From Henricia sp. BOLD:AAB3569 (Eukaryota > Echinodermata > Asteroidea > Spinulosida > Echinasteridae), in assembly GCA_037783545.1 (NCBI GenBank), contig JBBELK010000492.1, forward strand, positions 620,001-684,000: a DNA stretch of 64,000 nucleotides. The letters are read 5' to 3'. The translations under genes were made by a program, and so were the position numbers. Below the pieces are notes generated by a model. It was not told the origin of the DNA, did no database searches, and was given only the letters and a program-made list of their open reading frames with translations. Of this stretch, positions 7,724 through 44,727 are shown in pieces (positions within the stretch are counted from its first letter, which is position 1; each line of letters opens with the position of its first letter).

Positions 7724-8130
7724 GAGTTGTATTGCCCTATGGGGATTATCACCCAGGCAATGTTTATCTGTGGTTTCTAGCCAAGACTTTTAGACTTACG
7801 CCAGTCTCTTGTTTATTTCAGAGCCATGCTGTGTTACGCATGTACATTATATATATACCAGTTATGCACTCTCAGCAACACTATAATGTATTGTGGATCA
7901 GTGCAAGTCTATTCAGGCACAGTGCTGATTAATGGTGACTGCAGTCACTAGTTAAGCGTCGGTCACAACCCACCGTGCATGTTTTTAGTCCGTACGTTTT
8001 TTGGGGAGGCCACGGCCGCCACGTTTTTCTGAAAACCTGTGGAGGGAGTGGTAAGAGCAGGGAGGGAGTACGTCAACGCGCGTCACCCGCACGGTTGCGC
8101 AAGGTGTAAGTACGTGGCCCGCACGCGCAT

Positions 8131-9148: not shown

Positions 9149-10449
9149 TGCGCGGCCCGCACGCCACGCCTGGCCGTGAGCGGTTGCGTGCATCGTACGT
9201 TGCGCAAGTGGTAAGTGAGTTGAACGTGCTTACAACGTGCTTACAACGTACGATCTCCGTGCGATTGCCACGTTATCGTACGGAGGCCGTACTTACACGT
9301 GCTGCTTACGTATGGTGTCATTACTCACTCGCATGTTAGTGCGTGCAAGTGCGACGAACGTGAGTTTTTTTGGGGGGGTGGGGGGTGGGGGTATATATAG
9401 AAGGACCTTCCGAGGTTCTCCAGAAGTCCCAGCTGCTGCTGCCTCGGATTTTTATATATACTGCAGAAATCAGTGCACACAACGTGCGTTGTAAGTGGGG
9501 AGCACGTGCTTACTCGGTACGGTCCAAGTGAGTTCTGCGTGCTCATTTGACAGTTGAACTGGGGAAGTGCCAAGTAAGTACGGACCACGCACTTATCACG
9601 TGCGCAGCACGCACGTGCTAAGTGCGCCGTCCGTAGAGCAACTGACCGTAGGAAAAATTTAAATTTAAAATTAAAAATTTTAAAAGACTCACGGAGTCAG
9701 TGCGTTGTGCGCTCATTGGCTGTAGAGGGCACGCGCGTCACCCGTACTGGGGGTGAATCCGTAGCCCGAACGCAGCGAAAGTTCCTCGTGCACTAAAAGT
9801 GCTACGGCGTGTCTGCGTGCTCCCAAATCCGTACTGAGGCGGTACTCACCACGTACGGATCCCCAAATTTTGCCCACGTTTTTGCAAGTAGACAGCACGC
9901 ACTTGCAAGTACGCCGGTTTGGGACCACGGCTTTAGGCACATGTTTACGATATGTACTTGTCACTCTTAGAAGAATGAAATTAACTCGAATCTGTCAAAG
10001 TGCATGTAGTTGTACTGACGGTTTAACTATTATGTAAATTCCTTTTTAAATTATTATTACTGCGATTTGTTTTTGACATTGGTATTTTCTTTTATTCTGA
10101 ATACTGTTTTTGAGTACATGCACTTGCATAATTCGAATTGGTTTTCAGCCAGAAATAAGTTGGATTATGTCTGGGATCAGAGGCTTAGTTTAATTTCTCC
10201 TTACTGACCTAGTTACGGTCAAATGTCAGTTTTAGTTGTTATTGATTATGGTTTTAAGACATTGACAATTATTGTGTTTTAGGTGATGTTTATTAGCCTG
10301 TGTAACTTGTAATTCTGACCTGAGACTTTGCTGAGTGAAGAACAGTGACCACAAACCCAAGCTAAACCAGTGTCCCTCTGTTTGTATTTTTACAGTCTCA
10401 TTGATGAATCCCCCAGCGGTTACCCATTAGCCGTTGCGGGTGCAACATT

Positions 10450-10467
10450 TGGCGACCACGAATTGGG
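10450..10467 (+). promoter_or_regulatory. Gypsy primer-binding site
   Basis: TGGCGACCACGAATTGGG starts two bases after the CA end of the LTR. It begins TGG, as expected for a site complementary to a tRNA 3' CCA end. The tRNA species was not identified. A duplicate lies at about 16987 in unit 2. Confidence 0.6.
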
Positions 10468-10670
10468 ACGTGTGTCGTCTCTACATAAGCCTGTGGGGTC
10501 GATGACATACGCCTGTCCAGTGATGTTTAGAACCCGTCATTAATGCCACAAGTCACAGTCTAAGGCGGCATCAGCTAAGGAGAGCAGATCACCAGGGAGA
10601 GGACAACAGCGGCTTTTAGGGAGACCGGCATATTCGATTTCGGTCCCATCGTACAGCCTTTTGGTCCAAG

Positions 10671-11618
10671 ATGGAGGTTTCTGCACAAGAGCTATGCCAG
10701 CAACTGATACATCAGATTGGCGGACTATCCCGGGAGGCTTTGCTCAAGGTGTGTCAACACATTGGTCTCCCTGGATTCGAGGAACTGGTGGAAAAGGAAG
10801 AAACCTCAAGGGCTCTGGTTAGAAAAATACACCGACAGGTGCTAAGTGAACATTTAGAAACCAGAGAAGATGAAGGTCTGTCAGTATATCGTGACCTCAG
10901 TGATTTTCTTCAGAAGATAGGAGACGAGTCTGAGAAACTACAGGTACCGCACACGGAGAAGCCAGCAACGACGACAAAGGCTGCAGAGTCCACCAACCCT
11001 ACGTACACGGCAGGGTTTGTCACACGCCGAGAGTTAAAAATATCAGGGCAAATTGGCGAACCGGATCAGCGAGATCGGCTTTCCTTCTCCAGCCTGGCCC
11101 ACCAGATTGAGAGCGGCGGAACCAAAGGTTACAGTGAGCATGAGATCACTGAGGCAGTAATCCGAGCTGTTGTACCAGGGTCAGCTTTAAGGAGTTACCT
11201 CGAAGGGCGGAGTGACCTCACATTGCCAAGTATTCGTCGACTGCTTCGATCCCACTATCAGGAGAAGGATGCAACCGAGCTATACCATCAGTTGTCTCGG
11301 TTGTCCCAAGACAGCAGAGAGTCACCACAGAGTTTCCTAATGCGGGCCCTTGACCACCGACAAAAGGTGATTTTTGCCAGCCAGGAATCAGGCTCTGGCG
11401 TTAAATACGACTCGGCCCTCGTACAAAATATGTTCCCACACTCCATTCTGACAGGACTGAGGAGTAACCCAGTGAAGAGTGAAATCAGGACCCTACTAAG
11501 TGACCCTCTGACGACAGATGAAATCCTCCTCGAGAAGCTGAATATAGCCGCGGGCCATGAGACTAAACGGAGGGAGAAGCTGGGACAATCTAGGACCGCC
11601 CTGGTGAGGTCAGTTTAA
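10671..11618 (+). CDS. Gypsy Gag, unit 1 (315 aa, open)
   Basis: This is the only long intact frame in the unit, starting ATG at 10671 about 220 bp after the primer-binding site. It is mainly helical and hydrophilic with no membrane segment. A central stretch (about residues 150-250, with GTKGYSEHEITEAV and YHQLSRLSQDSRESPQSFLM) has the look of a Gypsy capsid region with its uptake-like Q/E-S-x-x-x-F pattern. A basic tail leads to a stop at 11616. The nucleocapsid zinc knuckle is downstream in a broken frame at about 11860. The product would form the particle of the retrotransposon. It differs from the unit 2 copy by very few bases (for example Ala/Thr at residue 47). Gag assignment rests on position and composition. 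Confidence 0.7.
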   Translation: MEVSAQELCQQLIHQIGGLSREALLKVCQHIGLPGFEELVEKEETSRALVRKIHRQVLSEHLETREDEGLSVYRDLSDFLQKIGDESEKLQVPHTEKPATTTKAAESTNPTYTAGFVTRRELKISGQIGEPDQRDRLSFSSLAHQIESGGTKGYSEHEITEAVIRAVVPGSALRSYLEGRSDLTLPSIRRLLRSHYQEKDATELYHQLSRLSQDSRESPQSFLMRALDHRQKVIFASQESGSGVKYDSALVQNMFPHSILTGLRSNPVKSEIRTLLSDPLTTDEILLEKLNIAAGHETKRREKLGQSRTALVRSV

Positions 11619-11849
11619 CAACAGAACACCAATGAAGAGGCATCAGAAGGGGATAACCCTGGCAAGAAAACACCCAAGCCAGGTACGCTCATGACAGACT
11701 TGGCTGAGCTAAAAGCAGGGATCGCCGAGATAGACACCCTAAAGCGGCAACTGACTAGTTAACAGGACACCCTACAGGCCACCCCCCTCCCCCCGCTCGT
11801 CAACAAGAATGGCAACAGTTATCCGAAAGCCGACGACCACAGAATAATT

Positions 11850-12189
11850 ACAGACGTCGCCGGGGCTGCCCCAACTGCCAACGAGAGGGAACTGGCAGTA
11901 GTTGTGATCACTGCTTCCACTGTGGATCGAGTGAGCATTTTGCCCGGGGGTGTCGCCGACCAAGAAACTACCAGACGGGAAACGGCGAGCGGTTACTGCC
12001 ACGGGACGAGCAGTAACCGTTGGATCTGTGCACCACAAGTCCCATGTCTATAACATATCTCCATCAAATCAAACAAAAGTTGCCAATCTTGTCGGGAAGC
12101 GCTGCCTTGTAAACTGCCAGATACAAGGAGTCAAAACAAGAGCGCTGTGGGACATGGGTGCCCAAGTCTCTGTCATTCCGGCAGACTGA
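11850..12189 (+). pseudogene. Gypsy nucleocapsid zinc finger and protease, unit 1, disabled
   Basis: An extended cysteine-rich finger (CPNCQREG, then CFHCGSSEHFARGC) lies at about 11867-11953. The protease frame follows at 11950-12189 and contains ALWDMGAQVSVI. The family's catalytic triplet is D-[ST]-G, so here the Thr/Ser position is Met, predicted to be inactive. A TGA stop follows IPAD at 12187. Both faults are identical in unit 2. Confidence 0.8.
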
Positions 12190-13560
12190 AAGATGGAAAA
12201 TATCCCAAACGCCGAGATCCGCCCCATTTCAGATCTCCTAGGTACAGACGACCTCAGTCTGACTGCAGCGAATGGGTCAGCAATCCCTTATGACGGATGG
12301 CTCGAGGTCTCCTTTACACTATAACGAGGTAAACAAATCAAAGCCCCAATGCTCCTTACCACAGCAACAACCGGAGTGCCCATCATCGGCTACAATGTCA
12401 TTGAAGAGATAATCAAGGCGGACGACTCGAGCTGTGGTCCAATACAAGCAGTAAAGACAGCTTTCCCGTCTTTGGCAAGAGGAGAAATCAAAATGCTGGT
12501 CAACCTTATACAAAAGGAACCACCGAGTGTAGGTGCAACGTAGTAGTGGGACGGAGCAATGTGATGCTACCAAAGAAGAGTATCAGTGAAGTGTGGTGTC
12601 ACGTCCATGCTAGCTACTTCCCAAGAGACACCAACGTCGTTTTCGAGCCCGATGTGACTGCCCCTTGGCCTGAGGATCTTCACCCCCAGCCAGTCATCGT
12701 AAAGCTTGACCAGGACCAAACACACAAAATTCCAATCCTCGTTGCCAATTATGCAGACCATGATATAGTACTTCCCAAGTGCACTCCCCTCGGCACTATT
12801 GAAGCAGCTGTGGCTGTTGAACCCATCATCCGTCAACGTCCAAGTACTCTAGAGTCAGTAGCACAAGTGAATTGCGTGACACCAACAGAAGGAGAAAGTT
12901 AATGGGTGCCACCTGTTGACTTAAGTCGCCTGTCGGAAGAACAGCGTCAACTTGCAGTACAGATACTCAGGGAAGATGCCAATGCATTTGCCCGTGATGA
13001 GAATGATTTGGGTTGCATCCAAAATTGGCAAATGCACCTCCGCCTACAAGATAGTCGTCCCGTACAAAAAAACATACACGTCCATCCCTCCTCCCCTTTA
13101 TCGAGAAGTCAAATCCTATCTTCAAGAACTGCTACAGAAAGGATGGATTAGAAAGTCAGAGTCGCCCTACTCCTCACCGGTAGTCTGTGCAAGAAAGAAA
13201 GACGGATCGCTGCGCCTGTGCATCGACTACCGGGAGTTAAACCGCAAGACCATACCCGACTAGCAACCGATACCCCGAATACAATATGTCTTGGACAGCC
13301 TTGGTGGTAATGCGTGGTTTTCGACATTGGACCAGGGCAAAGCCTATCAGGGTTTCATGGCAGAAGACAGCAGGGAAGCAACAGCATTCATCACACCTTG
13401 GGGATTGTATGAGTGGCTTCGAATCCCATTCGGCCTCACCAATGCCCCAGCAGTGTTTCAGAGGTGCATGGAGTCATGCCTGGACGGTTTAGTCGGTGAG
13501 ATTGCTGTTGTCTACCTGGATGATATCTTGGTGTACAGGCCGTCATTCGAAAAGCAGGTC
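12190..13560 (+). pseudogene. Gypsy reverse transcriptase, unit 1, broken off
   Basis: Linker frames lie at 12349-12543 and 12546-12902. The RT fingers follow ([22 protein letters not shown], about 13195-13260), then a TAG at 13261. Next comes the palm with [22 protein letters not shown] and the catalytic VVYLDDIL (about 13510-13533). The frame ends at the duplication junction 13560, where LTR sequence begins. RNase H and integrase are therefore missing from this copy. Confidence 0.88.
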
Positions 13561-13956
13561 GTGAATGTAGACCTTCTCATGTTAAAGTTTTATTTGTAAT
13601 CATTTTCAATTTTTCATCTAGAGTTTGAGTTTTACTATTATCAGTTAACCTGTGTGAACTGTTATTTTTACTTTTTGCAGTGCTTACACAGTAACTCATA
13701 TATCCATGTACATAGTCATTTACTGCAACTTTTAACTCTCGATTTTTCGCGCATATTTAATGAAGGTCACATTCCTAAGCCCAGCTGCCCATACTTTAAT
13801 GCAGAAAGGCTGGGACTGACCAAGAGTTGTATTGCCCTATGGGGATTATCACCCAGGCAATGTTTATCTGTGGTTTCTAGCCAAGACTTTTAGACTTACG
13901 CCAGTCTCTTGTTTATTTCAGAGCCATGCTGTGTTACGCATGTACATTATATATAT

Positions 13957-14392: not shown

Positions 14393-17206
14393 ATATACCA
14401 GTTATGCACTCTCAGCAACACTATAATGTATTGTGGATCAGTGCAAGTCTATTCAGGCACAGTGCTGATTAATGGTGACTGCAGTCACTAGTTAAGCGTC
14501 GGTCACAACCCACCGTGCATGTTTTTAGTCCGTACGTTTGTTGGGGAGGCCACGGCCGCCACGTTTTTCTGAAAACCTGTGGAGGGAGTGGTAAGAGCAG
14601 GGAGGGAGTACGTCAACGCGCGTCACCCGCACGGTTGCGCAAGGTGTAAGTACGTGGCCCGCACGCGCATTTTTTTTTACACCACTGCGAGGGGTAATCC
14701 TTCGTTACAGCGCACGTACAAAGACTACGAACAAGTCGCGCATGCGTAATAAGCCCCATAAGCCAATGATTGCAAACCACGTGTCTGTCGACGATGATAC
14801 CGGTGACTTTTCACTGATACCGGTGACTTTTTACCACAGAAAAAAATTGAGGGGTAGCTGATATTGGCTTCGAGACCTTGTATGCAAAACATAGTTTAAT
14901 GATACTACATGCACGTAAGCTGAAAAATATGTGTTTCCTAGTCTTCTATATTTTCCCACCCTCAACGGGGTTTTTCCATATCAAATATGCACCTACTGAC
15001 ATGACTGATGTTTTTATTGAGTAATTTTAAAGAATTTTACAATTCTGATACTGAACATTTAGAAGAATATTGAGTATTTAGAAGAAGTGATTGAAAAAGT
15101 GTTTGGAGGGAACGTTTTAAAAGTGACTTTAGGTAACAAAAAGTGTTTCATGGGGCAAATTATAGTGTTAAAAAAAAAACAATCAAAAAGTGTTTCAAAA
15201 GAACGATCAAAACGTCGTTTCGAAAGAAAGATCGAAACGTTTCGAAAGACGACCAAAATGTCGTTTAGAAAGAACGATCAAAACGTCGTTTCGAAAGATT
15301 GATCGAAACGTTGTTTCGAAAGAACGATCGAAACGCGTTTCGAAAGAACGATCGAAACGCGTTTCAAGGGAAAGAAGAAAAAAAAGTTTCGGAAACAGAG
15401 TTACCTTATACATGTACATGGAGGAAGGAAATGCCTTAGGCCTATGGGCTTATACTTTTGGGGACTGTTGTCGATCGACATAAAAAAAACATGCACTGAT
15501 CCTTTGGCTGATATTTTAATATGTACGCAGTTCTTCTTTTTTTTCCTTTCTAATCAATCATGATATTTATCTTATTATAATACATATTGTACAGCACATA
15601 TACGTACGGGGAACTTTAGTCTCTTCACCAGCAGTGAAATGGTGCGTTTTCTGCCAAATTCCCCTCGCAGTGGTGTAAAAAAAAAATGCGCGGCCCGCAC
15701 GCCACGCCTGGCCGTGAGCGGTTGCGTGCATCGTACGTTGCGCAAGTGGTAAGTGAGTTGAACGTGCTTACAACGTGCTTACAACGTACGATCTCCGTGC
15801 GATTGCCACGTTATCGTACGGAGGCCGTACTTACACGTGCTGCTTACGTATGGTGTCATTACTCACTCGCATGTTAGTGCGTGCAAGTGCGACGAACGTG
15901 AGTTTTTTTTGGGGGGTGGGGGGTGGGGGTATATATAGAAGGACCTTCCGAGGTTCTCCAGAAGTCCCAGCTGCTGCTGCCTCGGATTTTTATATATACT
16001 GCAGAAATCAGTGCACACAACGTGCGTTGTAAGTGGGGAGCACGTGCTTACTCGGTACGGTCCAAGTGAGTTCTGCGTGCTCATTTGACAGTTGAACTGG
16101 GGAAGTGCCGAGTAAGTACGGACCACGCACTTATCACGTGCGCAGCACGCACGTGCTAAGTGCGCCGTCCGTAGAGCAACTGACCGTAGGAAAAATTTAA
16201 ATTTAAAATTAAAAATTTTAAAAGACTCACGGAGTCAGTGCGTTGTGCGCTCATTGGCTGTAGAGGGCACGCGCGTCACCCGTACTGGGGGTGAATCCGT
16301 AGCCCGAACGCAGCGAAAGTTCCTCGTGCACTAAAAGTGCTACGGCGTGTCTGCGTGCTCCCAAATCCGTACTGAGGCGGTACTCACCACGTACGGATCC
16401 CCGAATTTTGCCCACGTTTTTGCAAGTAGACAGCACGCACTTGCAAGTACGCCGGTTTGGGACCACGGCTTTAGGCACATGTTTACGATATGTACTTGTC
16501 ACTCTTAGAAGAATGAAATTAACTCGAATCTGTCAAAGTGCATGTAGTTGTACTTACGGTTTAACTATTATGTAAATTCCTTTTTAAATTATTATTACTG
16601 CGATTTGTTTTTGACATTGGTATTTTCTTTTATTCTGAATACTGTTTTTGAGTACATGCACTTGCATATTTCGAATTGGTTTTCAGCCAGAAATAAGTTG
16701 GATTATGTCTGGGATCAGAGGCTTAGTTTAATTTCTCCTTACTGACCTAGTTACGGTCAAATGTCAGTTTTAGTTGTTATTGATTATGGTTTTAAGACAT
16801 TGACAATTATTGTGTTTTAGGTGATGTTTATTAGCCTGTGTAACTTGTAATTCTGACCTGAGACTTTGCTGAGTGAAGAACAGTGACCACAAACCCAAGC
16901 TAAACCAGTGTCCCTCTGTTTGTATTTTTACAGTCATTGATGAATCCCCCAGCGGTTACCCATTAGCCGTTGCGGGTGCAACATTTGGCGACCACGAATT
17001 GGGACGTGTGTCGTCTCTACATAAGCCTGTGGGGTCGATGACATACGCCTGTCCAGTGATGTTTAGAACCCGTCATTAATGCCACAAGTCACAGTCTAAG
17101 GCGGCATCAGCTAAGGAGAGCAGATCACCAGGGAGAGGACAACAGCGGCTTTTAGGGAGACCGGCATATTCGATTTCGGTCCCATCGTACAGCCTTTTGG
17201 TCCAAG

Positions 17207-18154
17207 ATGGAGGTTTCTGCACAAGAGCTATGCCAGCAACTGATACATCAGATTGGCGGACTATCCCGGGAGGCTTTGCTCAAGGTGTGTCAACACATTG
17301 GTCTCCCTGGATTCGAGGAACTGGTGGAAAAGGAAGAAACCTCAAGGACTCTGGTTAGAAAAATACACCGACAGGTGCTAAGTGAACATTTAGAAACCAG
17401 AGAAGATGAAGGTCTGTCAGTATATCGTGACCTCAGTGATTTTCTTCAGAAGATAGGAGACGAGTCTGAGAAACTACAGGTACCGCACACGGAGAAGCCA
17501 GCAACGACGACAAAGGCTGCAGAGTCCACCAACCCTACGTACACGGCAGGGTTTGTCACACGCCGAGAGTTAAAAATATCAGGGCAAATTGGCGAACCGG
17601 ATCAGCGAGATCGGCTTTCCTTCTCCAGCCTGGCCCACCAGATTGAGAGCGGCGGAACCAAAGGTTACAGTGAGCATGAGATCACTGAGGCAGTAATCCG
17701 AGCTGTTGTACCAGGGTCAGCTTTAAGGAGTTACCTCGAAGGGCGGAGTGACCTCACATTGCCAAGTATTCGTCGACTGCTTCGATCCCACTATCAGGAG
17801 AAGGATGCAACCGAGCTATACCATCAGTTGTCTCGGTTGTCCCAAGACAGCAGAGAGTCACCACAGAGTTTCCTAATGCGGGCCCTTGACCACCGACAAA
17901 AGGTGATTTTTGCCAGCCAGGAATCAGGCTCTGGCGTTAAATACGACTCGGCCCTCGTACAAAATATGTTCCCACACTCCATTCTGACAGGACTGAGGAG
18001 TAACCCAGTGAAGAGTGAAATCAGGACCCTACTAAGTGACCCTCTGACGACAGATGAAATCCTCCTCGAGAAGCTGAATATAGCCGCGGGCCATGAGACT
18101 AAACGGAGGGAGAAGCTGGGACAATCTAGGACCGCCCTGGTGAGGTCAGTTTAA
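17207..18154 (+). CDS. Gypsy Gag, unit 2 (315 aa, open)
   Basis: Duplicate of the Gag at 10671-11618 with the same length, start and stop, and almost identical sequence (Thr in place of Ala at residue 47). It keeps an open frame even though the downstream protease and RT carry shared stops. With so few substitutions since the copy event, the open frame says little about selection. Confidence 0.7.
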   Translation: MEVSAQELCQQLIHQIGGLSREALLKVCQHIGLPGFEELVEKEETSRTLVRKIHRQVLSEHLETREDEGLSVYRDLSDFLQKIGDESEKLQVPHTEKPATTTKAAESTNPTYTAGFVTRRELKISGQIGEPDQRDRLSFSSLAHQIESGGTKGYSEHEITEAVIRAVVPGSALRSYLEGRSDLTLPSIRRLLRSHYQEKDATELYHQLSRLSQDSRESPQSFLMRALDHRQKVIFASQESGSGVKYDSALVQNMFPHSILTGLRSNPVKSEIRTLLSDPLTTDEILLEKLNIAAGHETKRREKLGQSRTALVRSV

Positions 18155-18379
18155 CAACAGAACACCAATGAAGAGGCATCAGAAGGGGATAACCCTGGCA
18201 AGAAAACACCCAAGCCAGGTACGCTCATGACAGACTTGGCTGAGCTAAAAGCAGGGATCGCCGAGATAGACACCCTAAAGCGGCAACTGACTAGTTAACA
18301 GGACACCCTACAGGCCACCCCCCTCCCCCCGCTCGTCAACAAGAATGGCAACAGTTATCCGAAAGCCGACGACCACAGA

Positions 18380-18717
18380 ATAATTCGCCGGGGCTGCCCC
18401 AACTGCCAACGAGAGGGAACTGGCAGTAGTTGTGATCACTGCTTCCACTGTGGATCGAGTGAGCATTTTGCCCGGGGGTGTCGCCGACCAAGAAACTACC
18501 AGACGGGAAACGGCGAGCGGTTACTGCCACGGGACGAGCAGTAACCGTTGGATCTGTGCACCACAAGTCCCATGTCTATAACATATCTCCATCAAATCAA
18601 ACAAAAGTTGCCAATCTTGTCGGGAAGCGCTGCCTTGTAAACTGCCAGATACAAGGAGTCAAAACAAGAGCGCTGTGGGACATGGGTGCCCAAGTCTCTG
18701 TCATTCCGGCAGACTGA
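18380..18717 (+). pseudogene. Gypsy nucleocapsid and protease, unit 2, disabled
   Basis: Same CFHCGSSEHFARGC finger and same DMG-for-DTG protease change with the same TGA stop at 18715 as unit 1, so these defects are older than the duplication. The 8-bp deletion next to the finger is private to this copy. Confidence 0.8.
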
Positions 18718-20776
18718 AAGATGGAAAATATCCCAAACGCCGAGATCCGCCCCATTTCAGATCTCCTAGGTACAGACGACCTCAGTCTGACTGCAGCGAA
18801 TGGGTCAGCAATCCCTTATGACGGATGGCTCGAGGTCTCCTTTACACTATAACGAGGTAAACAAATCAAAGCCCCAATGCTCCTTACCACAGCAACAACC
18901 GGAGTGCCCATCATCGGCTACAATGTCATTGAAGAGATAATCAAGGCGGACGACTCGAGCTGTGGTCCAATACAAGCAGTAAAGACAGCTTTCCCGTCTT
19001 TGGCAAGAGGAGAAATCAAAATGCTGGTCAACCTTATACAAAAGGAACCACCGAGTGTAGGTGCAACGTAGTAGTGGGACGGAGCAATGTGATGCTACCA
19101 AAGAAGAGTATCAGTGAAGTGTGGTGTCACGTCCATGCTAGCTACTTCCCAAGAGACACCAACGTCGTTTTCGAGCCCGATGTGACTGCCCCTTGGCCTG
19201 AGGATCTTCACCCCCAGCCAGTCATCGTAAAGCTTGACCAGGACCAAACACACAAAATTCCAATCCTCGTTGCCAATTATGCAGACCATGATATAGTACT
19301 TCCCAAGTGCACTCCCCTCGGCACTATTGAAGCAGCTGTGGCTGTTGAACCCATCATCCGTCAACGTCCAAGTACTCTAGAGTCAGTAGCACAAGTGAAT
19401 TGCGTGACACCAACAGAAGGAGAAAGTTAATGGGTGCCACCTGTTGACTTAAGTCGCCTGTCGGAAGAACAGCGTCAACTTGCAGTACAGATACTCAGGG
19501 AAGAAGCCAATGCATTTGCCCGTGATGAGAATGATTTGGGTTGCATCCAAAATTGGCAAATGCACCTCCGCCTACAAGATAGTCGTCCCGTACAAAAAAA
19601 CATACACGTCCATCCCTCCTCCCCTTTATCGAGAAGTCAAATCCTATCTTCAAGAACTGCTACAGAAAGGATGGATTAGAAAGTCAGAGTCGCCCTACTC
19701 CTCACCGGTAGTCTGTGTAAGAAAGAAAGACGGATCGCTGCGCCTGTGCATCGACTACCGGGAGTTAAACCGCAAGACCATACCCGACTAGCAACCGATA
19801 CCCCGAATACAATATGTCTTGGACAGCCTTGGTGGTAATGCGTGGTTTTCGACATTGGACCAGGGCAAAGCCTATCAGGGTTTCATGGCAGAAGACAGCA
19901 GGGAAGCAACAGCATTCATCACACCTTGGGGATTGTATGAGTGGCTTCGAATCCCATTCGGCCTCACCAATGCCCCAGCAGTGTTTCAGAGGTGCATGGA
20001 GTCATGCCTGGACGGTTTAGTCGGTGAGATTGCTGTTGTCTACCTGGATGATATCCTGGTGTACAGCCCGTCATTCGAAAAGCAGGTCGAGTATCTTCGT
20101 CGAGTATTGAGGCGTTTGCAAGCAAGAGGTGAGGTACCTGGGCCGAGTTGTTTCTTGTAAAGGTTACAAGATGGATCCCGCAGATGTAGCAGCAGTGGAG
20201 GCCCTTCGCGATAGACGGCCAGGTACTGTAGGTGAACTGAGGAAGGTACTGGGGCTGCTTGGCTACTGCCGCCAATACATCCAAAACTTCTCCTGCATTG
20301 CAAAGCCCCTGTACGAACTACTCCAGAAACAAGGCGATGAGGGTCAGAGAGAAAGGGGAAAACTACATCCACAACAGAGAAAAGCGTATAAGAAGAACTG
20401 TATGGGACATGTCCCCTCTTGGCAGCCAATCACTTGGACATATTCCCACCAGTCAATCCTGGAACGCCTTCTGAGATGCCCTACGTCTCCACCAGTAATG
20501 GGTTTCCCCGACCACAAGAAACCATTCATCTTACACACTGACGCCTCACATCACGGATTGGGTGCTGTGCTTTACCAAGAACAAGATGGCAAGAAACGGA
20601 TGATTGGCTATGGTTCTCGTACACTTACTGCGGCAGAAAAAAACTACCACCTTCACTCCGGTAAGCTGGAGTTCCTTGCCCTAAAATGGGCAGTCACAGA
20701 GAAGTTCATGGATTACCTGTACGGACCAGGTGATATGAGACACTACAACCTGACACAGGCCACACTCCTACATTAA
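18718..20776 (+). pseudogene. Gypsy RT and RNase H, unit 2 and unique continuation
   Basis: The RT fingers (about 19722-19788, TAG at 19789) and palm with VVYLDDIL (about 20037-20060) match unit 1. Past 20088 the sequence is unique and continues the same gene. The RT thumb (GELRKVLGLLGYCRQYIQNF) lies at about 20230-20290. The frame 20129-20776 carries the RNase H start HTDASHHGLGAVLY (about 20536) and GKLEFLALKWAVTEKFMDYL (about 20660-20717). RNase H then stops short of its second half and runs into unrelated text. Integrase is absent, so an internal deletion joined RNase H to the pol tail. Confidence 0.85.
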
Positions 20777-22952: not shown

Positions 22953-23026
22953 CTAATACGCCACGCCCGAAACCTCTGTGGCCAGGCCTTTCGTGTACCA
23001 AGCGAAATAATGTTGACTCAACACAC

Positions 23027-23827
23027 CTGGTAAAAAGCCTGCTATCATCATAGGAGCCACACCGAGGATACCAATCCACCCATATGCACTCGTTATCCGA
23101 TCACCTCCGAGTAGATATTTTGTCAACACGTCGTCGATGGTGAACAGGGCAGATATGGCAATCCCAAAGATGAAGGCCGAGACGGCTAATGAAGGTATAC
23201 TGTTCATCCAAGGGTCCACTACTAACGAAGCAGAAAGAATAAGGCTTGCGACGATAACTCCTGTTGAGTAGTCAACCAAACGTCTGTCAATGAATGGTGC
23301 AATGAGAACTGTCCAGATGAAGTAACCTGCGGCAGTTACGGAGACTAACAAGGTCGCTACCTGGGGTGAGATCCCTTTGGCTTGTAGGTGTGGGACGTAG
23401 AAAATCACCCAAACACTATTAGTTATGTTCACTGACATCAGACACATATAAGCCACCCAGAATTTGAATTCTAAGAGGAGTTTAAAATCTATTGCTTTTG
23501 TAACTTCGGCACACAGCGATTTTATTGATCGCTTGCTCGAGTTGTCGCATTCCGGGAAACGTGGTTGGTCTGACAAAGGGTGGTAGAGAGGTCTCTTTAA
23601 CCTAACACGGGCTGAGCTAGCAATGGGATGCAAGCAAATTCCACCGAGGAGTAGGGTCGCGCCTCTCCAACCATATGTGTCAAGAAACAGCTGCATCAAA
23701 GGTGCGAAGACCAGAAATGCAAAGGCTGTGCCCGAGTGGCTAATTCCGCAGGCGAATGTATAATGGTTGGTGAAATGACGTGCGAGTACAGACTTGTGGA
23801 GGACAGTTAGAAATCCGTTTCCCGGTC
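23027..23827 (-). CDS. MCT-like transporter (SLC16 family), coding exon 3
   Basis: Encodes residues 124-391 of a 430-residue 12-helix major facilitator of the monocarboxylate transporter type, expected in a membrane. The first bases complete the Gly of GPGNGFL, the family's glycine-rich fourth helix. Next comes CGISHSGTAFAFLVFAPLMQ and the hallmark LDTYGWRG before helix 6. A hydrophilic central loop (about residues 185-225) separates the two six-helix halves. The C-terminal half has the pair PFIDRRLVDY, where MCTs carry functional Asp/Arg residues, and SAYGW in the penultimate helices. The acceptor AG is 23829-23828 and the donor is CAG|GTGTGT at 23027/23026, phase 1. Reading past that donor gives 24 unrelated residues to a stop at 22953, which I interpret as intron. 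The substrate cannot be told from sequence. Confidence 0.88.
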
Positions 23828-23929: not shown

Positions 23930-24073
23930 CCACAAGAAAAATAATGGCCATTGAGATGTGGAATAGGCGTGTGGCCAAAGGAATCAAGAGCAAGCCAAAT
24001 CCAACCATTGATGCGCTGAGGACCAACACAGGTCTGGTGCCCAGGCGATTCTCCAGAACCACAGTGAACAGTC
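23930..24073 (-). CDS. MCT-like transporter (SLC16 family), coding exon 2
   Basis: Encodes residues 76-124: the end of the helix 2-3 loop and helix 3. The text GLFTVVLENRLGTRPVLVL matches the family loop that usually reads R-x-G-x-R-P-V. The acceptor (TTTCCAG, AG at 24075-24074) and donor (G|GTAAGA at 23930/23929) both have good consensus. The 102-bp intron after it happens to stay open, so a naive frame continues through about 34 spurious residues before GPGNGF. Removing the intron restores an uninterrupted MCT alignment with helix 3 joined directly to helix 4. Splice phase is 1 on both sides. Confidence 0.88.
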
Positions 24074-37771: not shown

Positions 37772-37997
37772 CTGCGATTCTCGACGCGACGGACATCATT
37801 GATATCGTGGTTCCGATAAGCCATGTGTCGCTTGTAAATTGCTCTGTAAGGGTTAGCAACAACACGCCGAAACTTTTGTAGATACACCCCCACAACGCGA
37901 CGACGCTAAAAGCCATCACAACGATAAAGACATCATCCCAACACCATTCATTTCTCGCATCAACGACGGCTGCCCCGGACTGACGTGCTCCCGCCAT
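37772..37997 (-). CDS. MCT-like transporter (SLC16 family), coding exon 1
   Basis: Encodes residues 1-75 and one base of codon 76. ATG at 37997 is the first in frame. In the sequence before the LINE inserted, an in-frame TAA lies 27 bases upstream (now 44034-44032), which supports this start. A short polar N-terminus leads to WCWDDVFIVVMAFSVVALWG (helix 1) and KSFGVLLLTL. The family usually has D-G-G-W-G-W before helix 1, so this protein keeps the Trp pair but not the glycines. Helix 2 (DTWLIGTTISMMSVASRIAG) ends at the donor GCAG|GTAAAG (37772/37771). Joining the phase-1 G to exon 2 restores AGLFTVVLENRLGTRP. The gene continues 13.7 kb away at 24073. Confidence 0.88.
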
Positions 37998-38005
37998 TGC
38001 ACTCA

Positions 38006-38016
38006 CGGAGAAAGTG
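38006..38016. repeat. LINE target-site duplication, proximal copy
   Basis: CGGAGAAAGTG next to the (TTG)n end of the LINE, identical to 44016-44026. The following T is shared as well, so 12 bp is possible. It lies 9 bp upstream of the MCT-like ATG. Confidence 0.92.
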
Positions 38017-38040
38017 TTGTTGTTGTTGTAGTGGGTAGGT

Positions 38041-38075
38041 TGGCACGTACGGCAAACTTAGTGCCCTGTGTGCCA
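38041..38075 (-). other. LINE 3' double stem-loop
   Basis: On the minus strand, TGGCAC (38075-38070) pairs with GTGCCA (38046-38041), and an inner GGCA/TGCC stem lies between. The CAA tail follows about 12 bases later. A structure at this place is the usual recognition site of a stringent LINE reverse transcriptase. The same 35-nt layout is at 29287-29253 and a 33-nt version ends the SINE at 5114-5146. Confidence 0.7.
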
Positions 38076-38474
38076 TTAACATAACAATTCATGCGAAATG
38101 TACAGTGATACGGTACGGTAGAGCTGACCGGGATGGTGTATCATGTACTGCGCGCGCAAATAAAAGCTAGTAATGAAGAAAGGATCGAATCCATAAGCGC
38201 AAGCACGACAAGTTGGGCAAAACCATTTGGAAGGCGGGTAGGAGGGTTGTACGCATTCACGCTCGTTCCCTAGTCCCAAACCGCAGTATGGGGGTATTAC
38301 GACTGTCCCGCCGCAAGAGTTCAAAGAACTCTCCCGACATCATTGAAGTTTTGATCATTCCGGGGGACAGCCGCCAACTAACCTACCTACACTAAATTAA
38401 AGCTAATTAACGAGCATTTATGCGCCACCCTCCAAAAGGAATGCAATATCGTTAGATCAAGAGGTGTATTATAT

Positions 38475-41400
38475 TTAAATGTTAATATTACAATTTCGGA
38501 TATACTGCAGAATTTGGTAGCCGTTTTGTTTTTGTCCCAGAATTCGTTCCAGAGTCATCTCGGGTTTAGTCAATCCGAGTGACTTTTGAAGGATTTGTCT
38601 CTGATTGTTGTATTTTGAACAATTCAGTAGGAAGTGTTCAATATCTTCCCAACATGCACAGTTTTCGCATAGACCATTGGGATGTTTGCCAATTATGTAA
38701 AGGAAATCATTTAGTCCTTTGCAGGTACCAATTCGCAATCTGTGTAAGGCGACTTCTAGGGGTCGTTTCATTCCCCAGCTTACAAAGTGAAATGATGGTT
38801 GATAAATTATGTTCTTTGTTGTTTTTAGTTTGGAGATTTTCTTAGCCCAGCTCTCTTTAAGTTGTTCCTTGAGTATATGTTTAATTTCACTATCTAGCAA
38901 TGGAATGCAGCAGTCAATATCACTTTTTTGGGTGGCCAATTTTGCGATTTTGTCAACTTTTTCATTTCCGGGGATACCGCAATGACTGGGAATCCATTCG
39001 AAGTTGACAATGTTGCCCTGTTGACGTATGTTAATGAGCATGTGACGTATGTCACAAACTATTTTGTGTTTTGGGACTGTTTTATTGATTGCCTGAAGTG
39101 CGCTTAGGCAATCACTGAAAATACATGTATTAAGGGGTTTAACGTCTTCAATCCACTCAAGGGCGAGGAGTATAGCAAAGAGTTCAGCTGTGAATACAGA
39201 AACGCCGTTATTTAGTCGGATGCATTTTGAGTATTTAAATTCAGGGATGTAAATCCCACATCCGACAGTTCCAATTTTGGGGTTGTATGAGCCATCAGTA
39301 TAAACATGTAACGAGTTAAACCAAGTGGTATTAATTATTTCAATACTTTTACTGCCCTTATCATTGATGTGAATTAAATGAGAAACTTGACAGAAAATCT
39401 CCTCAGATATTGCAGGTTTGAAATAGTGCCAGAAAGGAAAAGGGTCGTTTTGAGGAAATACGTTAAAGGTGAATTGTGAAAATCTGGCTTCGAAAGGTGT
39501 TTTGTGAGTAGTTTTTTGCCATTTTTCCTTAAAATATTGTTTTTGCCAATTGTCCCCTTTAAGGTACTCATTGGGGTGGTTTTTTTGGGCATTTATTTTG
39601 GTTCCATATAGATTGCATAAAAATTGTCTGCGGAGAGATAAGGGAGGATCACCACTCTCAGTCTGCAGTCTGTATAGAGGCGAGCCTTGAATTGCCCCAG
39701 TACATACTTTTAAGGCTTGATACTGCATGCTGTCCAGTTTCTCTTTAATTGTTGTTGAAGCGGAGTCAAAAGCTTCACAACCATATTCTAAAACGGGTCT
39801 GATTAGGGCAGTGTAGAATTGGTAGAGGGTTTTGCAGTCTGCACCCCAAGAATTACCACAAATACATCTGAGAATATTAAGTTTTCTCTTACATTTACTA
39901 ATAGTATTTTCGATATGTTCCTTCCATGTAAGTTTGCTATCAAAGATAACTCCCAGAAATTTAGCAGATGGAGCAGTCTGGATGATGTTGTCTTGGAGTC
40001 GAAGGGAAATGATCTTTGGGTTTCTTTTGTTTGTGAATAGAACAGCAACTGTTTTGGGAACAGACAGCTTGAATCCCCATTTTGAACACCATGTATTAAC
40101 AGCATCCAGACTTTTCTGGATTTGTTTTTCAAGATAATTTATGTTTCTGTTTGATTTCCAGATAGCAATATCATCTGCAAATTGTGAGATGTTAGCATTT
40201 GTAATATGCTGGGAGAGATCATTGATAGAAATATTAAACAGAATAGGACTTATGACACTTCCCTGTGGAACACCATTTTCGACAACTTGTTCCTCAGAAA
40301 AATTATTATTAATTTTGACTTGAATTTTTCTGTCGGTAAGGAAGTTATCAATCCATTTGGTTATTCTACCGTATATACCCATTGATTGCAACTTAATAAT
40401 AATACCCTTACGCCAGACCATGTCATAGGCTTTTTCAATGTCGAGAAAAATGGCAAGGGTGCTTTCCTTGTTGGCACGAGCTCTATTTATGGATGATTCT
40501 AGATTAAGGATATGGTCTTTAGTACTACGACCTTTCCTGAAACCACTCTGATGTTGTGAGAGTATGTTATTCTTTTCAAGAAACCAAGTAAGTCGATTGT
40601 TAACCATTCTCTCCATTAATTTACAAAGTGTGGATGTGAGAGCAATAGGTCTATAAGAGGATGGTTTAGTTTTGTCTTTTCCAGGCTTGGGAAGTGGAAT
40701 TAGAATTGCCTCTTTCCACTGTTTAGGGCATTGAGATGTCTGCCAAATCAAGTTGAAGATGACAAGAAGAAATTGGCGAATTTTTATTGGGAGATGTTTT
40801 AGAACAAGATTGTTAATTCCATCCTTGCCTGGTGAAGTGCACTTTGACGAGTCAATAGCATTGTTAAGTTCGTCTATATTAAATGATTCATTAATAACAT
40901 TGTCGTTATTGGAGTTAATTTCAAGTTCCTCTTCTGCTTTAGTTTTTATGGTAACAAATGAGGGAGTGTAATTACCAGTACTGCTTACTTTGGCAAAGTT
41001 TATAGCAAGAGCCTCGGCTTTATCTTTGTCAGTTACAGCATCCGCTGTTCCATCTTGTTGCAGAACAGGGATACTGTTAGTGTTTCCGGATTTTTCAATT
41101 CGTTTAATTTTGTTCCAAATAACTTTAGTATTAGTTTTGGGATTTAGTTCATTACAAAATTTTTCCCAATCATTGCGTTTAGCATTATTAATTATTCTCT
41201 TTGCCATTGCACAAGTTTTTTTATATGTTATAAGGTCTGAAGGTAGCCTTGTTTTTCTAAGTGTTTTTAAGGCATTCTTTTTATCATTTATGGCTTGCTT
41301 ACATTCTTCATTCCACCATGATGTGGGTTTTTTCCTATGATTAGGGTTAGTTTTGGGAATAGCACATCCCATAGCTTGTTCAAGTTGGTTAATGAAGTTA

Positions 41401-42224
41401 TCATAAATTACATTAATATTATCCATGTCATTAGGCTCAGAGATATATTGGTTGCAAGTATTATGGAATTTATCCCAATTAGCTTTCTTAAGAGACCATT
41501 TAGGGGTCGTTATAATAGAGTTTTTATGAACCTTATGATTAATTACTGTATGTATAGGACAATGATCACTTCCCCATGTGTCGTTTAAGACTGTCCAACT
41601 AGACTTGGCAGCAAGGCCTGGGGAAGTGAAGGTGACGTCAAGGCATGAGAGAGTGCTTTTAAAAGAATTTACTCTAGTACCTTCACCTGTATTGATGCAA
41701 ACCATGTTTGTCTGGGATATAATATCTTCAACAACTTGTCCATTATGGTCTAAGCTTGAGCTACCCCATAAGGGGTTATGGCCATTTAAATCGCCACAAA
41801 TGATAGCTGGTTTGTCTACTTTCTTAACAATGTCGTTAAATGAGTTGGCATCAAGATAGGTACAAGGATTATATAAGTTAAGTAAGCTAATTTTATTTTT
41901 ATGGTCATCATACAATTCCCCTATTTGGTATTCAATTGGATTGTCAGAGCCTGATATATATTTGAAGGCTAAACCACGTTTGGCTAAAATTGCACAGCCC
42001 CCTCCGCGTTTTTTGAGTTTCGTATTATTTCTATCTTGTCTATAAATGTCATATCCAGGAACATTGTATTTTTTATCTTCTTTTAACCAAGTTTCTTGAA
42101 GGCAAATTATATCAGGCTTGACATTCCATGAGCTTATAGCGTTCTTGAACTCTTTGCTATGTGCTAATATTGACTGTGCATTCCATTGTAGGATACTAAG
42201 AACCATGAGAGATATAAAAATCAT
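38475..42224 (-). CDS. LINE ORF2: endonuclease-reverse transcriptase-RNase H (1249 aa)
   Basis: One uninterrupted frame. The APE-type endonuclease occupies about residues 1-235 (LQWNAQSI, CLQETWL, GDLNGHNPLWG and GSDHCPI near residue 218). Reverse transcriptase runs from about 480 to 770 with SSYRPIALTSTLCKLMERM, GFRKGRST, FLDIEKAYDMVWR, GVPQGSVISPILFNI and FADDIAIW (catalytic Asp pair near residue 682). RNase H lies at about 970-1100 with HVYTDGSYN, FTAELFAILLALEWI, FSDCLSAL and IPSHCGIPGNEKVD, so all acidic sites are visible. A C-terminal CENCACWEDIEHFLLNC finger closes the protein. The frame starts at ATG 42224, which overlaps the ORF1 stop as ATGA. The product would nick target DNA and copy the LINE RNA in place. 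No disabling change seen. Confidence 0.95.
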   Translation of the reverse strand: MIFISLMVLSILQWNAQSILAHSKEFKNAISSWNVKPDIICLQETWLKEDKKYNVPGYDIYRQDRNNTKLKKRGGGCAILAKRGLAFKYISGSDNPIEYQIGELYDDHKNKISLLNLYNPCTYLDANSFNDIVKKVDKPAIICGDLNGHNPLWGSSSLDHNGQVVEDIISQTNMVCINTGEGTRVNSFKSTLSCLDVTFTSPGLAAKSSWTVLNDTWGSDHCPIHTVINHKVHKNSIITTPKWSLKKANWDKFHNTCNQYISEPNDMDNINVIYDNFINQLEQAMGCAIPKTNPNHRKKPTSWWNEECKQAINDKKNALKTLRKTRLPSDLITYKKTCAMAKRIINNAKRNDWEKFCNELNPKTNTKVIWNKIKRIEKSGNTNSIPVLQQDGTADAVTDKDKAEALAINFAKVSSTGNYTPSFVTIKTKAEEELEINSNNDNVINESFNIDELNNAIDSSKCTSPGKDGINNLVLKHLPIKIRQFLLVIFNLIWQTSQCPKQWKEAILIPLPKPGKDKTKPSSYRPIALTSTLCKLMERMVNNRLTWFLEKNNILSQHQSGFRKGRSTKDHILNLESSINRARANKESTLAIFLDIEKAYDMVWRKGIIIKLQSMGIYGRITKWIDNFLTDRKIQVKINNNFSEEQVVENGVPQGSVISPILFNISINDLSQHITNANISQFADDIAIWKSNRNINYLEKQIQKSLDAVNTWCSKWGFKLSVPKTVAVLFTNKRNPKIISLRLQDNIIQTAPSAKFLGVIFDSKLTWKEHIENTISKCKRKLNILRCICGNSWGADCKTLYQFYTALIRPVLEYGCEAFDSASTTIKEKLDSMQYQALKVCTGAIQGSPLYRLQTESGDPPLSLRRQFLCNLYGTKINAQKNHPNEYLKGDNWQKQYFKEKWQKTTHKTPFEARFSQFTFNVFPQNDPFPFWHYFKPAISEEIFCQVSHLIHINDKGSKSIEIINTTWFNSLHVYTDGSYNPKIGTVGCGIYIPEFKYSKCIRLNNGVSVFTAELFAILLALEWIEDVKPLNTCIFSDCLSALQAINKTVPKHKIVCDIRHMLINIRQQGNIVNFEWIPSHCGIPGNEKVDKIAKLATQKSDIDCCIPLLDSEIKHILKEQLKESWAKKISKLKTTKNIIYQPSFHFVSWGMKRPLEVALHRLRIGTCKGLNDFLYIIGKHPNGLCENCACWEDIEHFLLNCSKYNNQRQILQKSLGLTKPEMTLERILGQKQNGYQILQYIRNCNINI

Positions 42225-43795
42225 GATGATTTATTTGTTTTTGCTTTAGGGATATCGTTTTGACTCGAGGTGGATGGAGGGCCCATTTTTGGCTGATCAG
42301 TGCCACCAGAGTCTTTTCCTTTAGGTTGGGAAGATTTGCGAGAGCTTTCATTTCTTTTTGTGGTGACGGGCGATTGTGATGGTGTTCTATGCTTTCCATG
42401 TTTTTCCTTTTGTTTAGAGGTTTCAGTAGAGTGGAAAGTATGGTCGATCAGTTTCTTTATGGCAGTTATTCTATCGTCCTTTTTCTTGATTGTTTCCCAA
42501 ATCTGCATGGTTCCGGTTAGTAGTTCAAGGAGGTATTGTTGGTTACCGCATGGACATGGTTGACTTATTTCCGTTTGTGTCTCAGCCGATTGTTCTGTTT
42601 GAGTAGTCGCATCTGTTGTTCGTCTTACGGGCTTTGTGGGTTCAGGGTCAAGGTTTATGCTCATTCTTCTGTCACCACTGAAATTTGGACGAACGTGATT
42701 TTCTGCATTAACCATTTGTTCTGGTTGTTGGGATAGTTGGGATAGTTGGGTCATTTGGGTATAAGACTCCGGACGTATGGATATGTCAGTTTTAATTACT
42801 TTAGCGGCATCTGCATATGAAAGTTTGTATGAGATTCTAATCTCTTGAATTTTCCTTTCCTTTTTCATGGTGTCACAGCCCCCGTATGCGGATGAGTGGT
42901 TTTGACCGCAGCGACAGCATCGAGCATTGTCTTTTTGGTTGCAATGCTCGAATGCATGTGGCCCCCCGCATCGCACGCACCGGGTGCTGCTTCGACAATT
43001 GCTGGCAACATGACCAAGACGCTGACAATTAAAGCAGCGAATTACGGGGGGTATGAACGGTTTGACAGAAAAGTATTCATATCCAAGTTGAACTTTGGGT
43101 GGTAGATTTGGACAATTGAAGGTCAGACAGACAGATATACTTTTTTCAAGTTTCCCTTCGTATTTTCTCATGAGGCGTTTGGCTGTGATTACGCCCTGCT
43201 TTTTGCATGTTGCCAGCAATTCATCGTCCGTGATATCTGTAGGAATACCCGTAATAACGCCTTTACTTTGGGTTTCTGACTTAGCGTACTCAGTCGTGAC
43301 AGTCCATTGGTCCAGGCGTGTTATGTTTTTCATTTTCTTTGCTTGGGCCGATGTGTGACAGCGTACACTAATTCCACCTTGATTATTTTTGTTCACTGAT
43401 TTGATGTAGTCTTTCCCTACTTGGTTAAGTGCCTTAGCGATTCTAATGGGGTTTATTCTAGCTAGTTGCACGTCCGGAGATTTAATTATTACTAGGGTCG
43501 GTTGGCTATCATCAGGTTGGATGTATCTACGCTTAGTTTGGTGGTGATCATTAGAAGAGTCATTATCGGTATCAGTAAAAACGTCGCTATACGAGATAGA
43601 TGCTTTTGATCTCTTCCTTGTTTTTGTTTGTGGCTGGGGTTGAGAGCTATTTTGGGCTTGACTTATTAGGGCATCGCAGGTGGATCGGGGTTGATCGTTT
43701 TCAGTTTCATGTTTGGCTTGCGAGTTTCTTGGGGGTTTTTGTGCACATTCCCAATGCCGGTCAGAGTCAGACTCCATTTCGACTTCTTCGGCCAT
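42221..43795 (-). CDS. LINE ORF1: Gag-like nucleic-acid-binding protein (524 aa)
   Basis: An intact frame starting at ATG 43795. The N-terminal 100 residues are polar and probably disordered. A central region (about residues 100-240, with VQLARINPIRIAKALNQVG and GVITGIPTDITDDELLATCK) resembles the RNA-recognition-like domain of I/Jockey ORF1 proteins. Three zinc knuckles follow at about residues 250-305: CFNCQRLGHVASNC, CVRCGGPHAFEHC and CCRCGQNHSSAYGGC. The C-terminal part is low in complexity and rich in Gln, Ser and Lys. It would coat LINE RNA. The stop TGA (42223-42221) overlaps the ORF2 start, suggesting ORF2 is made by re-initiation after ORF1 termination. Confidence 0.92.
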   Translation of the reverse strand: MAEEVEMESDSDRHWECAQKPPRNSQAKHETENDQPRSTCDALISQAQNSSQPQPQTKTRKRSKASISYSDVFTDTDNDSSNDHHQTKRRYIQPDDSQPTLVIIKSPDVQLARINPIRIAKALNQVGKDYIKSVNKNNQGGISVRCHTSAQAKKMKNITRLDQWTVTTEYAKSETQSKGVITGIPTDITDDELLATCKKQGVITAKRLMRKYEGKLEKSISVCLTFNCPNLPPKVQLGYEYFSVKPFIPPVIRCFNCQRLGHVASNCRSSTRCVRCGGPHAFEHCNQKDNARCCRCGQNHSSAYGGCDTMKKERKIQEIRISYKLSYADAAKVIKTDISIRPESYTQMTQLSQLSQQPEQMVNAENHVRPNFSGDRRMSINLDPEPTKPVRRTTDATTQTEQSAETQTEISQPCPCGNQQYLLELLTGTMQIWETIKKKDDRITAIKKLIDHTFHSTETSKQKEKHGKHRTPSQSPVTTKRNESSRKSSQPKGKDSGGTDQPKMGPPSTSSQNDIPKAKTNKSS

Positions 43796-44015
43796 TTGGC
43801 CGGTTTGGGGGTCTTAATTTGTACACCTCTTGATCTTATAGATATTGCTTACCCGTCTTGTGCAGAAAACAGTAGGCTTATTAGATGATCAGTTTTAACT
43901 CAGTGTGAAAAACAACTTGTCGCGATTGACTAGTGACGCAGTTTCAATTTTTGGCGCGCTCACGAAATTTTATGAACACGTCCGGTCAGCTCTGAGTCTC
44001 ATCGTCGAATCTCCG

Positions 44016-44026
44016 GAGAAAGTGTA
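44016..44026. repeat. LINE target-site duplication, distal copy
   Basis: CGGAGAAAGTG directly beyond the LINE 5' end and identical to 38006-38016. What follows (44027 on) is the original upstream region of the MCT-like gene. Confidence 0.92.
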
Positions 44027-44189
44027 ATTTTACCTGGCGATACTGTTGACTGCACGGTCACGCATTGTATATCACTATGAGCTACTAACAATGGAAATTG
44101 GGCACAAACCATTGTTATTAACAATGGTTTGTGTCCTATATATCTAGTGCACTGTTGTGTGTAAGGGAGGTGAAGGCTGTTACCATTTA
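44027..44189 (-). promoter_or_regulatory. Original upstream region of the MCT-like gene, with TATA-like box
   Basis: After mentally removing the LINE, this segment lies immediately upstream of the ATG. On the minus strand it has a TATA-like GATATATAGG at about 44145-44136 and a 31-bp palindrome (44103-44133) between that box and the start. Before the insertion the TATA-like word was about 130 bp from the ATG; now it is about 6.1 kb away. Function is inferred from position only. Confidence 0.3.
44103..44133. repeat. Perfect 15-bp palindrome, 1-nt centre
   Basis: CACAAACCATTGTTA (44103-44117) and its exact complement TAACAATGGTTTGTG (44119-44133). Each arm has ACAAACCATTGT, resembling ACAAT/AACAAT-type binding sites arranged head to head. 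Confidence 0.9.
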
Positions 44190-44431
44190 GCCTTTTAGAA
44201 GTATGGCGGAACAAAAGGAGAGGGCGCAATTTTATTTGGGTATGAATGTTTTTATCAATTGTATTTCTTTCCAAAAACTTGATTTACATGTTGTAATTAT
44301 AATACATAGACAGAATTATAAATAAAATTAATAAGTGTAAAGTGAAAAACTGAGTTATTTTGCATTTTAGTCGATTTTATACCCAATGCAAAGTGCGCCC
44401 TCCTATTGTGTCCGCCATACTTCAAAAAGGC
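44190..44431. mobile_element. Palindromic MITE (GCCTTTTNGAAGTATGGCGG ends)
   Basis: Left arm (44190-44245) and right arm (44378-44431) are inverted. They share GAAGTATGGCGGA, AGGAG-GGCGC and TTTGGGTA/TACCCAATG blocks. About 55-bp arms surround an AT-rich centre. No clear target duplication. Confidence 0.75.
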
Positions 44432-44727
44432 CAATTCAGTGACACAGGCGTTCTGATTGACTTGTTTTTGATTGTTTGAAATAAAATAATGATTTTATTT
44501 CTAAACTTTTGTGTCCCGTTGTACCGTTTTGCTGGGTTTAGTTTGTATTGGTAATTTGGGATGGGATTTAAATGTTATTTTTGCGAGCAAAAGAAAGTTT
44601 TTCAGTTAATTTTGGTCTAGCAGGAGCTAGCTTTCTAGGCTACCGTTTGCCCTTCATCAGCTGCGGGTGGGATTCGGGAGAATCCGGGTGACTCGCTTTG
44701 GGTTCCTTGAGCGGAAGGATCCAGCTT

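Follow-up and report, generated by a model that had tools for sequence, protein, structure and literature searches.

LINEs (long interspersed nuclear elements) are generally taken to insert either at scattered places or into one particular repeat. To our knowledge no promoter targeting has been described for the I factor of Drosophila, which has a (TAA)n tail; the tail of the Henricia LINE described here is (CAA)n. In Dictyostelium, the ORF1 protein of the tRNA-gene-targeted element TRE5-A binds TFIIIB subunits including TBP (PMC5911963, PMC5391098). The DNA analysed here is a stretch of 64,000 nucleotides from a Henricia sp. assembly (C492:620001-684000, referred to as the window; C and L numbers designate contigs and loci). 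It contains a full-length, putatively I-type LINE lying directly ahead of the coding part of a transporter gene. Across the genome, insertions of the same lineage are found at a narrow distance downstream of TATA-like motifs. This young lineage probably targets core promoters of RNA polymerase II (Pol II), inserting in sense near the start site by target-primed reverse transcription.

Spacing between TATA-like motifs and insertions

Genome searches were done over the 740.7-Mb assembly. The 3' end of the window LINE, searched with at most 2 mismatches, was found at 59 places, and a control pattern at 0; several short copies among the 59 are closer to relatives of the LINE than to the window copy. 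The final set comprised 32 insertions with target duplications, 25 carrying the 3' end of the window LINE and 7 coming from relatives that are ~65-67% identical in open reading frame (ORF) 2 (9 fetched on both sides, 7 entered). Sites were aligned on the first base of the duplication; 3' flanks were taken first, and the 5' side was added wherever a copy could be placed. The hallmarks of target-primed reverse transcription were found in this set: duplications, variable 5' truncation and a common 3' end. Among 30 sites, which were chosen for having a duplication, its length was 8-14 bp and mostly 10-13 bp.

A heptamer counted as TATA-like if it fitted TATAWAD with no more than one mismatch, and it was scored if its first base lay 19-24 nt ahead of the duplication on the LINE strand. 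Such a heptamer was present at 21 of the 32 sites, against 2.3 expected (P 5e-17). The distances in these 21 sites run from 19 to 24, with 12 at 22 when ties between heptamers are settled towards 22; with the tie rule dropped (30 sites), the counts at 19 to 24 are 1, 4, 4, 11, 5 and 2. For the first 30 sites the heptamer was found in 19 and the exact motif in 8 (0.16 expected). Ten other offsets gave 0, 1, 1, 3, 3, 3, 4, 4, 4 and 5 of 30, and the observed score was reached in none of 5000 circular shifts (30 sites). Removal of three doubtful 5' junctions left 19/29, and further removal of three sites nested in older LINE tails left 17/26. Distances in the first nine sites were 21-23, and that range recurred in 12 of 21 later sites (0.77 expected, P 1e-12). 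The last two sites, read after motif and range had been fixed, both carried the heptamer (3 relatives fetched, 1 not evaluable). Insertions therefore stand at a fixed distance and in a fixed orientation to a core-promoter element (21/32, compared with 1/30 on the mirror side).

The 34 places left out of the 59 fall under four reasons. The flank had already been seen for C599, C79, the second C490, C478, C1774, C99, C429, C654, C922, the second C1020 and two of three in C704. Seven places with one common flank were seen from the 3' side only (C34 twice, C57, the second C64, C154, the second C495 and C227). A clear adjoining duplication was lacking at C365, C366, C611, C361, C161, C499, C1020, C261, C704, C888, C428, C279 and C237, and C1087 and C1965 were seen from the 3' side only. 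Among these uncounted places, C365 has TATAAAAG 20 nt upstream of its 5' junction; C237, with an imperfect duplication, has a TATA at 29 and C611 a TATA at 45 from the junction, and both of the latter would be misses. Further copies were found by DNA with no usable duplication (C104, C233, C50, the second C361 and C175), and C556 and C6 were seen from the 5' side only. The relatives not entered were C227 (weak duplication, TATA distant) and C315, in which a duplication-like 13-mer lies ~140 nt ahead of the 5' end of the LINE (L139/L140), as though extra sequence had been joined at the 5' junction. The C501 relative, in an older LINE tail, was entered and scored as a miss. Loose junctions were kept, with 10 (C992) and 41 (C1590) extra nucleotides between duplication and LINE; at C1002 the LINE was not traced as far as the duplication. 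These three are the doubtful junctions removed for the count of 19/29.

Some sites share repeats. A single repeat is common to C1590 and C242, and one repeat family is touched by C454, C237 and C495; the insertions at C158, C114 and C501 are nested in the tails of older LINEs. At C1590 (L020) and C242 (L120/L072) the LINEs stand at the same point of one repeat that has no evident TATA box, and the 3' flank of C233 is similar to that of C1590. A common target repeat was considered as an explanation and holds for few sites, not for the whole set.

Promoter signs at the targets and readings of the spacing

Coding frames lie downstream in the sense of the LINE at 7 of the 32 sites (the window, C495, C217, C490, C1769, C548 and C638). 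The C1769 relative follows ATTTGCAT...TATATATAC and the 13-bp duplication TTGTCTGGCCATT, beyond which histone H2B starts (E 9e-19 against solved H2B; E, expectation value). This duplication has CCATT at its 3' end, which we take to resemble a histone cap site and which would place the first base of the LINE at ~+3. The C217 flank reads ATGATGCAACCACAGAGCAATTTTCCGCCGAGTCATGTAAGT, with an ATG and then a donor-like sequence (by eye); ~250 nt further on is a 228-aa frame like IFIT5 (E 6.9e-5). A second exon 1 of monocarboxylate transporter (MCT) type flanks the C495 insertion (E 9e-9 to that of the window in a two-sequence comparison); the LINE copy there (L014/L092) is split by ~20 kb, with a short tandem repeat GGATGACGACATCC... 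at its start. The LINE precedes a piggyBac-type transposase at C548 (1.2e-29), a gag frame at C638 (2.6e-5) and MKVLPILLFVVCLLGLSTG, which is signal-peptide-like by eye, at C490. At C757 (L022) the target is a tandem array of ~815-nt units with a TATA-bearing unit and 17 tRNA matches; the target sequence occurs 11 times in the array, two of these being the duplications at the insertion. A search of 15 loci with Rfam gave 17 matches, all to tRNA and all in L022. Seven antisense frames of 3' flanks, used as a strand check, matched no Pfam family, nor did three further sense frames, and scanning the 5' flanks of 8 loci for ORFs gave no frame of at least 150 aa.

The distance from the first T of a TATA box to the start site is ~30-31 nt, and on initiating, Pol II melts approximately the DNA from -10 to +3. 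The last base of the duplication lies 27-34 nt from the first T in the TATA-bearing sites (30-34 nt in 20 of 21). If the start sites lie at the distance from TATA that this spacing predicts, the duplication, in most cases of 10-13 bp, would cover about -10 to +3, approximately the initiation bubble; we therefore propose that both bubble edges are nicked by a ribonucleoprotein (RNP) drawn to the initiation complex. The target DNA would be nicked ~22 nt downstream of the first T, and target-primed reverse transcription would insert the LINE in sense with its 5' end at ~+3. The promoter would be kept upstream of the LINE and the coding part of the host gene displaced downstream. An element protein may be drawn by the initiation complex or by melted DNA, and the host promoter may then drive LINE RNA. 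In its full form, the proposal is that the lineage has evolved targeting of the Pol II initiation complex at TATA promoters, cutting both strands at the bubble edges and inserting in sense with its first nucleotide at ~+3, so that each copy takes over a host promoter and severs the gene from it; we regard this full form as evenly poised between right and wrong.

Several points weigh against promoter targeting. The start sites are putative, and no enrichment of an initiator (YR or CA) was seen at the expected start in the 21 TATA sites. When the range of 19-24 nt was fixed, most sites had already been inspected by eye, and all controls (mirror, offsets and shifts) were made within this one LINE lineage of the genome. 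Eleven of the 32 sites have no TATA at the usual distance, among them the window target, which has none at -22. A gene was not identified at 25 of the 32 sites, many of which have only ~300 nt of flank, and several targets are in repeats (older LINE tails, an LTR-like promoter and the tandem tRNA array; LTR, long terminal repeat).

The endonuclease or the ORF1 protein could instead read TATA-like bent DNA directly and cut 22 nt away, the transcription machinery having no role. Such reading would account for the spacing by itself; in its favour too are the lack of an initiator signature at the targets and the AT-rich stretches of older LINE tails among them (C158, C114). It is nevertheless unlikely: the motif is on one strand only, its spacing agrees with that between TATA and start site, the layout at the H2B target is that of a histone promoter, and coding frames follow several of the targets. 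Enzymes of LINEs with an apurinic/apyrimidinic endonuclease (APE) are also known to recognise bases at the nick itself and not at a distance of two helical turns.

The initial annotation had treated the position of the window copy as an accident, that is, as an ordinary LINE with no target preference that came to lie before a start codon by chance. LINEs of that kind are common, and the window site has no TATA in the usual place. One promoter feature recurs at one spacing in 21/32 sibling sites, matched by none of the 5000 shifted controls, and this makes chance placement very improbable; insertion near Pol II start sites appears instead as a habit of the lineage. The spacing statistics reject chance adjacency to a gene for the lineage, and this rejection does not extend to the single window copy. 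Random insertion followed by survival or ascertainment is scarcely credible: full-length copies close to promoters might have a higher activity as sources, but 5'-truncated copies, some of ~30-60 nt and incapable as sources, show the TATA spacing equally (12/19 compared with 7/11 full-length copies), and survival would not hold the distance at 19-24 nt.

The window copy and its host gene

Features of the window are collected in Table 1. The two copies of CGGAGAAAGTGT are identical over all 12 bp. Perfect duplications of 11 bp had been annotated initially; their identity stood, whereas the length was 1 bp short and the right copy, given as 44016-44026, was 2 bp off. Pfam matched zf-CCHC once in ORF1, and three C/H motifs were found by pattern at 254, 273 and 293. 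In ORF2, Exo_endo_phos, RVT_1 and RNase_H were matched above the cut-off, and all the catalytic motifs searched for were found. Its closest solved structures are human LINE-1 ORF2 (E 1.4e-25), followed by R2 proteins. The two frames overlap by ATGA and both are open. By the domain layout of ORF1 and ORF2 the element is probably an I-type (I factor-like) non-LTR retrotransposon.

The insertion is recent. The window LINE has 4 mismatches to the C228 copy and 6 differences to the C599 copy over 5,996 aligned bases, with 59 differences to the C64 copy (5,972 bases) and 60 to the C1590 copy (5,971). GGACGTG near its 5' end resembles the downstream promoter element (consensus RGWYVT); being shared with relatives, it suggests that the LINE may use start signals of its own together with those of the host. 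The 3'-terminal hairpin has a predicted energy of -15.4 kcal/mol. Copies consisting of the last 58 nt of the LINE only, each with its own duplications, were found at L109, L110, L112, L125 and L128 (and L127). Five of 20 copies compared start at the same base, which is the foot of the predicted hairpin, and a sixth starts 1 nt earlier; these copies have the appearance of strong-stop products made during target-primed reverse transcription.

Table 1. Positions of the LINE, its parts and the host gene in the window
Feature	Position	Strand	Basis or remark
Full-length non-LTR retrotransposon, 5,996 bp	38018..44013	-	boundaries by longest duplication; near-identical ends in other full-length copies
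Target-site duplication, gene-side copy, CGGAGAAAGTGT	38006..38017	.	sequence comparison
Target-site duplication, far copy, CGGAGAAAGTGT	44014..44025	.	sequence comparison
ORF1, 524 aa, three CCHC-type motifs	42221..43795	-	ORF, Pfam, pattern search
ORF2, 1249 aa, APE-type endonuclease, reverse transcriptase, RNase H, C-terminal C/H cluster	38475..42224	-	Pfam, motifs
3'-terminal 58 nt, predicted hairpin TGGCAC...GTGCCA and (CAA)n tail	38018..38075	-	several very short copies start here
GGACGTG, LINE nt 31-37	43977..43983	-	resembles downstream promoter element; shared with 5' ends of 9 relatives read
TATACAA, TATA-like heptamer closest to the window target	44065..44071	-	46 nt upstream, not the usual 22
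Transporter exon 1 with ATG	37997..37772	-	gene model
Transporter exon 2	24073..23930	-	gene model
Transporter exon 3, end of 414-aa frame	23827..22953	-	gene model; MCT match

The three modelled transporter exons join in phase on the strand of the LINE. The stretch 22953-24101 matches MCT2 (E 1.4e-12) and MCT1 (E 2.5e-7), and the frame matches Pfam MFS_1 (E 9e-11). The host gene is accordingly predicted to be SLC16 monocarboxylate-transporter-like, with the MFS fold and MCT relatives. Its ATG (37997-37995) lies 20 bp from the insertion point and 8 nt past the end of the duplication. When the flanks are rejoined with the LINE removed, an in-frame TAA stands 9 codons upstream of this ATG, and the insertion site is likely to be within the 5' untranslated region (UTR) proper. 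From the ORF2 stop to the transporter ATG there is no AATAAA and no ATTAAA; two weaker variants, CATAAA and AATACA, are each present once. The initial annotation was borne out in describing a recent LINE with both frames intact, on the strand of the gene, some 20 bp ahead of a plausible start codon with an upstream in-frame TAA before insertion, and with no AATAAA in the LINE 3' UTR.

Transcripts from the old promoter would now begin with ~6 kb of LINE before the transporter ATG. The initial annotation had raised read-through or lost expression as outcomes. Since 124 ATGs precede that ATG in a LINE-initiated transcript, simple read-through translation looks less likely from the sequence than loss of normal transporter expression, or than its rescue through splicing or through a new start site. 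A dead transporter gene was also considered and is unsupported, the modelled frame being open across its three exons. C492 and C599 are two assembled contigs of the locus and both carry the LINE, the aligned blocks around it being 99.1-99.9% alike. No empty allele was seen when the assembly was searched by far-side flank and 3' junction, each of which was found only at the C492 and C599 loci among scored matches. Placement 20 bp ahead of an ATG is in keeping with the habit of the lineage, and position by itself is what argues for promoter targeting of the window copy; its target could be a promoter that lacks TATA, or could be off-target.

Two further repeats were noted in the window. A repeat of ~250 bp resembling a miniature inverted-repeat transposable element, with inverted ends of ~60 nt, lies at 44187-44435, separated by 160 bp from the LINE downstream of it. 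Of 3504 candidate matches, 40 were scored, and the ones outside its own locus are 94-98% identical to it. Positions 7853-13561 and 14393-20089 form a 5.7-kb duplication (99.5% identity) with a 315-aa frame in either copy; the second assembled copy of the locus (C599) may differ there.

Relation to known targeted elements

Targeted insertion of a LINE by target-primed reverse transcription is of a known kind. A LINE directed to start sites of Pol II was not found in the literature searched, most subscription journals being outside the search, and Pol II promoters are a new class of target as far as that search reaches. If the reading is true, LINE insertions would provide a map of open promoters made by nature, the LINE would act as a directed mutagen of promoters, and the lineage would show how an element with no upstream promoter of its own acquires one. 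RNA-templated writing of DNA at start sites is suggested as well.

In its proteins the Henricia LINE is like the I factor of Drosophila, for which three Cys-His motifs in ORF1 and an APE, reverse transcriptase/RNase H and C-terminal Cys-His domain in ORF2 are described (PMC2881922). Like R1 and Tx1 clade LINEs, Keno and Utopia, it would be a target-specific non-LTR element; their targets are in multicopy genes (PMC4640811). Those elements aim at one sequence in one gene family, whereas the targets of the Henricia LINE vary and share a core-promoter feature. Insertion at a transcription start site would be shared with Ty3, which is guided by TBP and Brf1 (PMC5911963). Unlike the Henricia LINE, Ty3 is an LTR element with an integrase, inserts at Pol III genes and does not use target-primed reverse transcription. 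TRE5-A is likewise an APE-type non-LTR element at a fixed distance from a transcription unit. Its insertions lie ~44-54 bp ahead of Pol III genes and are oriented opposite to them, whereas the Henricia LINE would insert in sense at the putative start site of Pol II TATA promoters. The proposed recruitment of the RNP by the initiation complex is modelled on the ORF1 protein of TRE5-A, which is reportedly drawn by TBP/TFIIIB (PMC5391098, PMC5911963). If correct, the Henricia LINE would stand to Pol II as Ty3 and TRE5-A do to Pol III.

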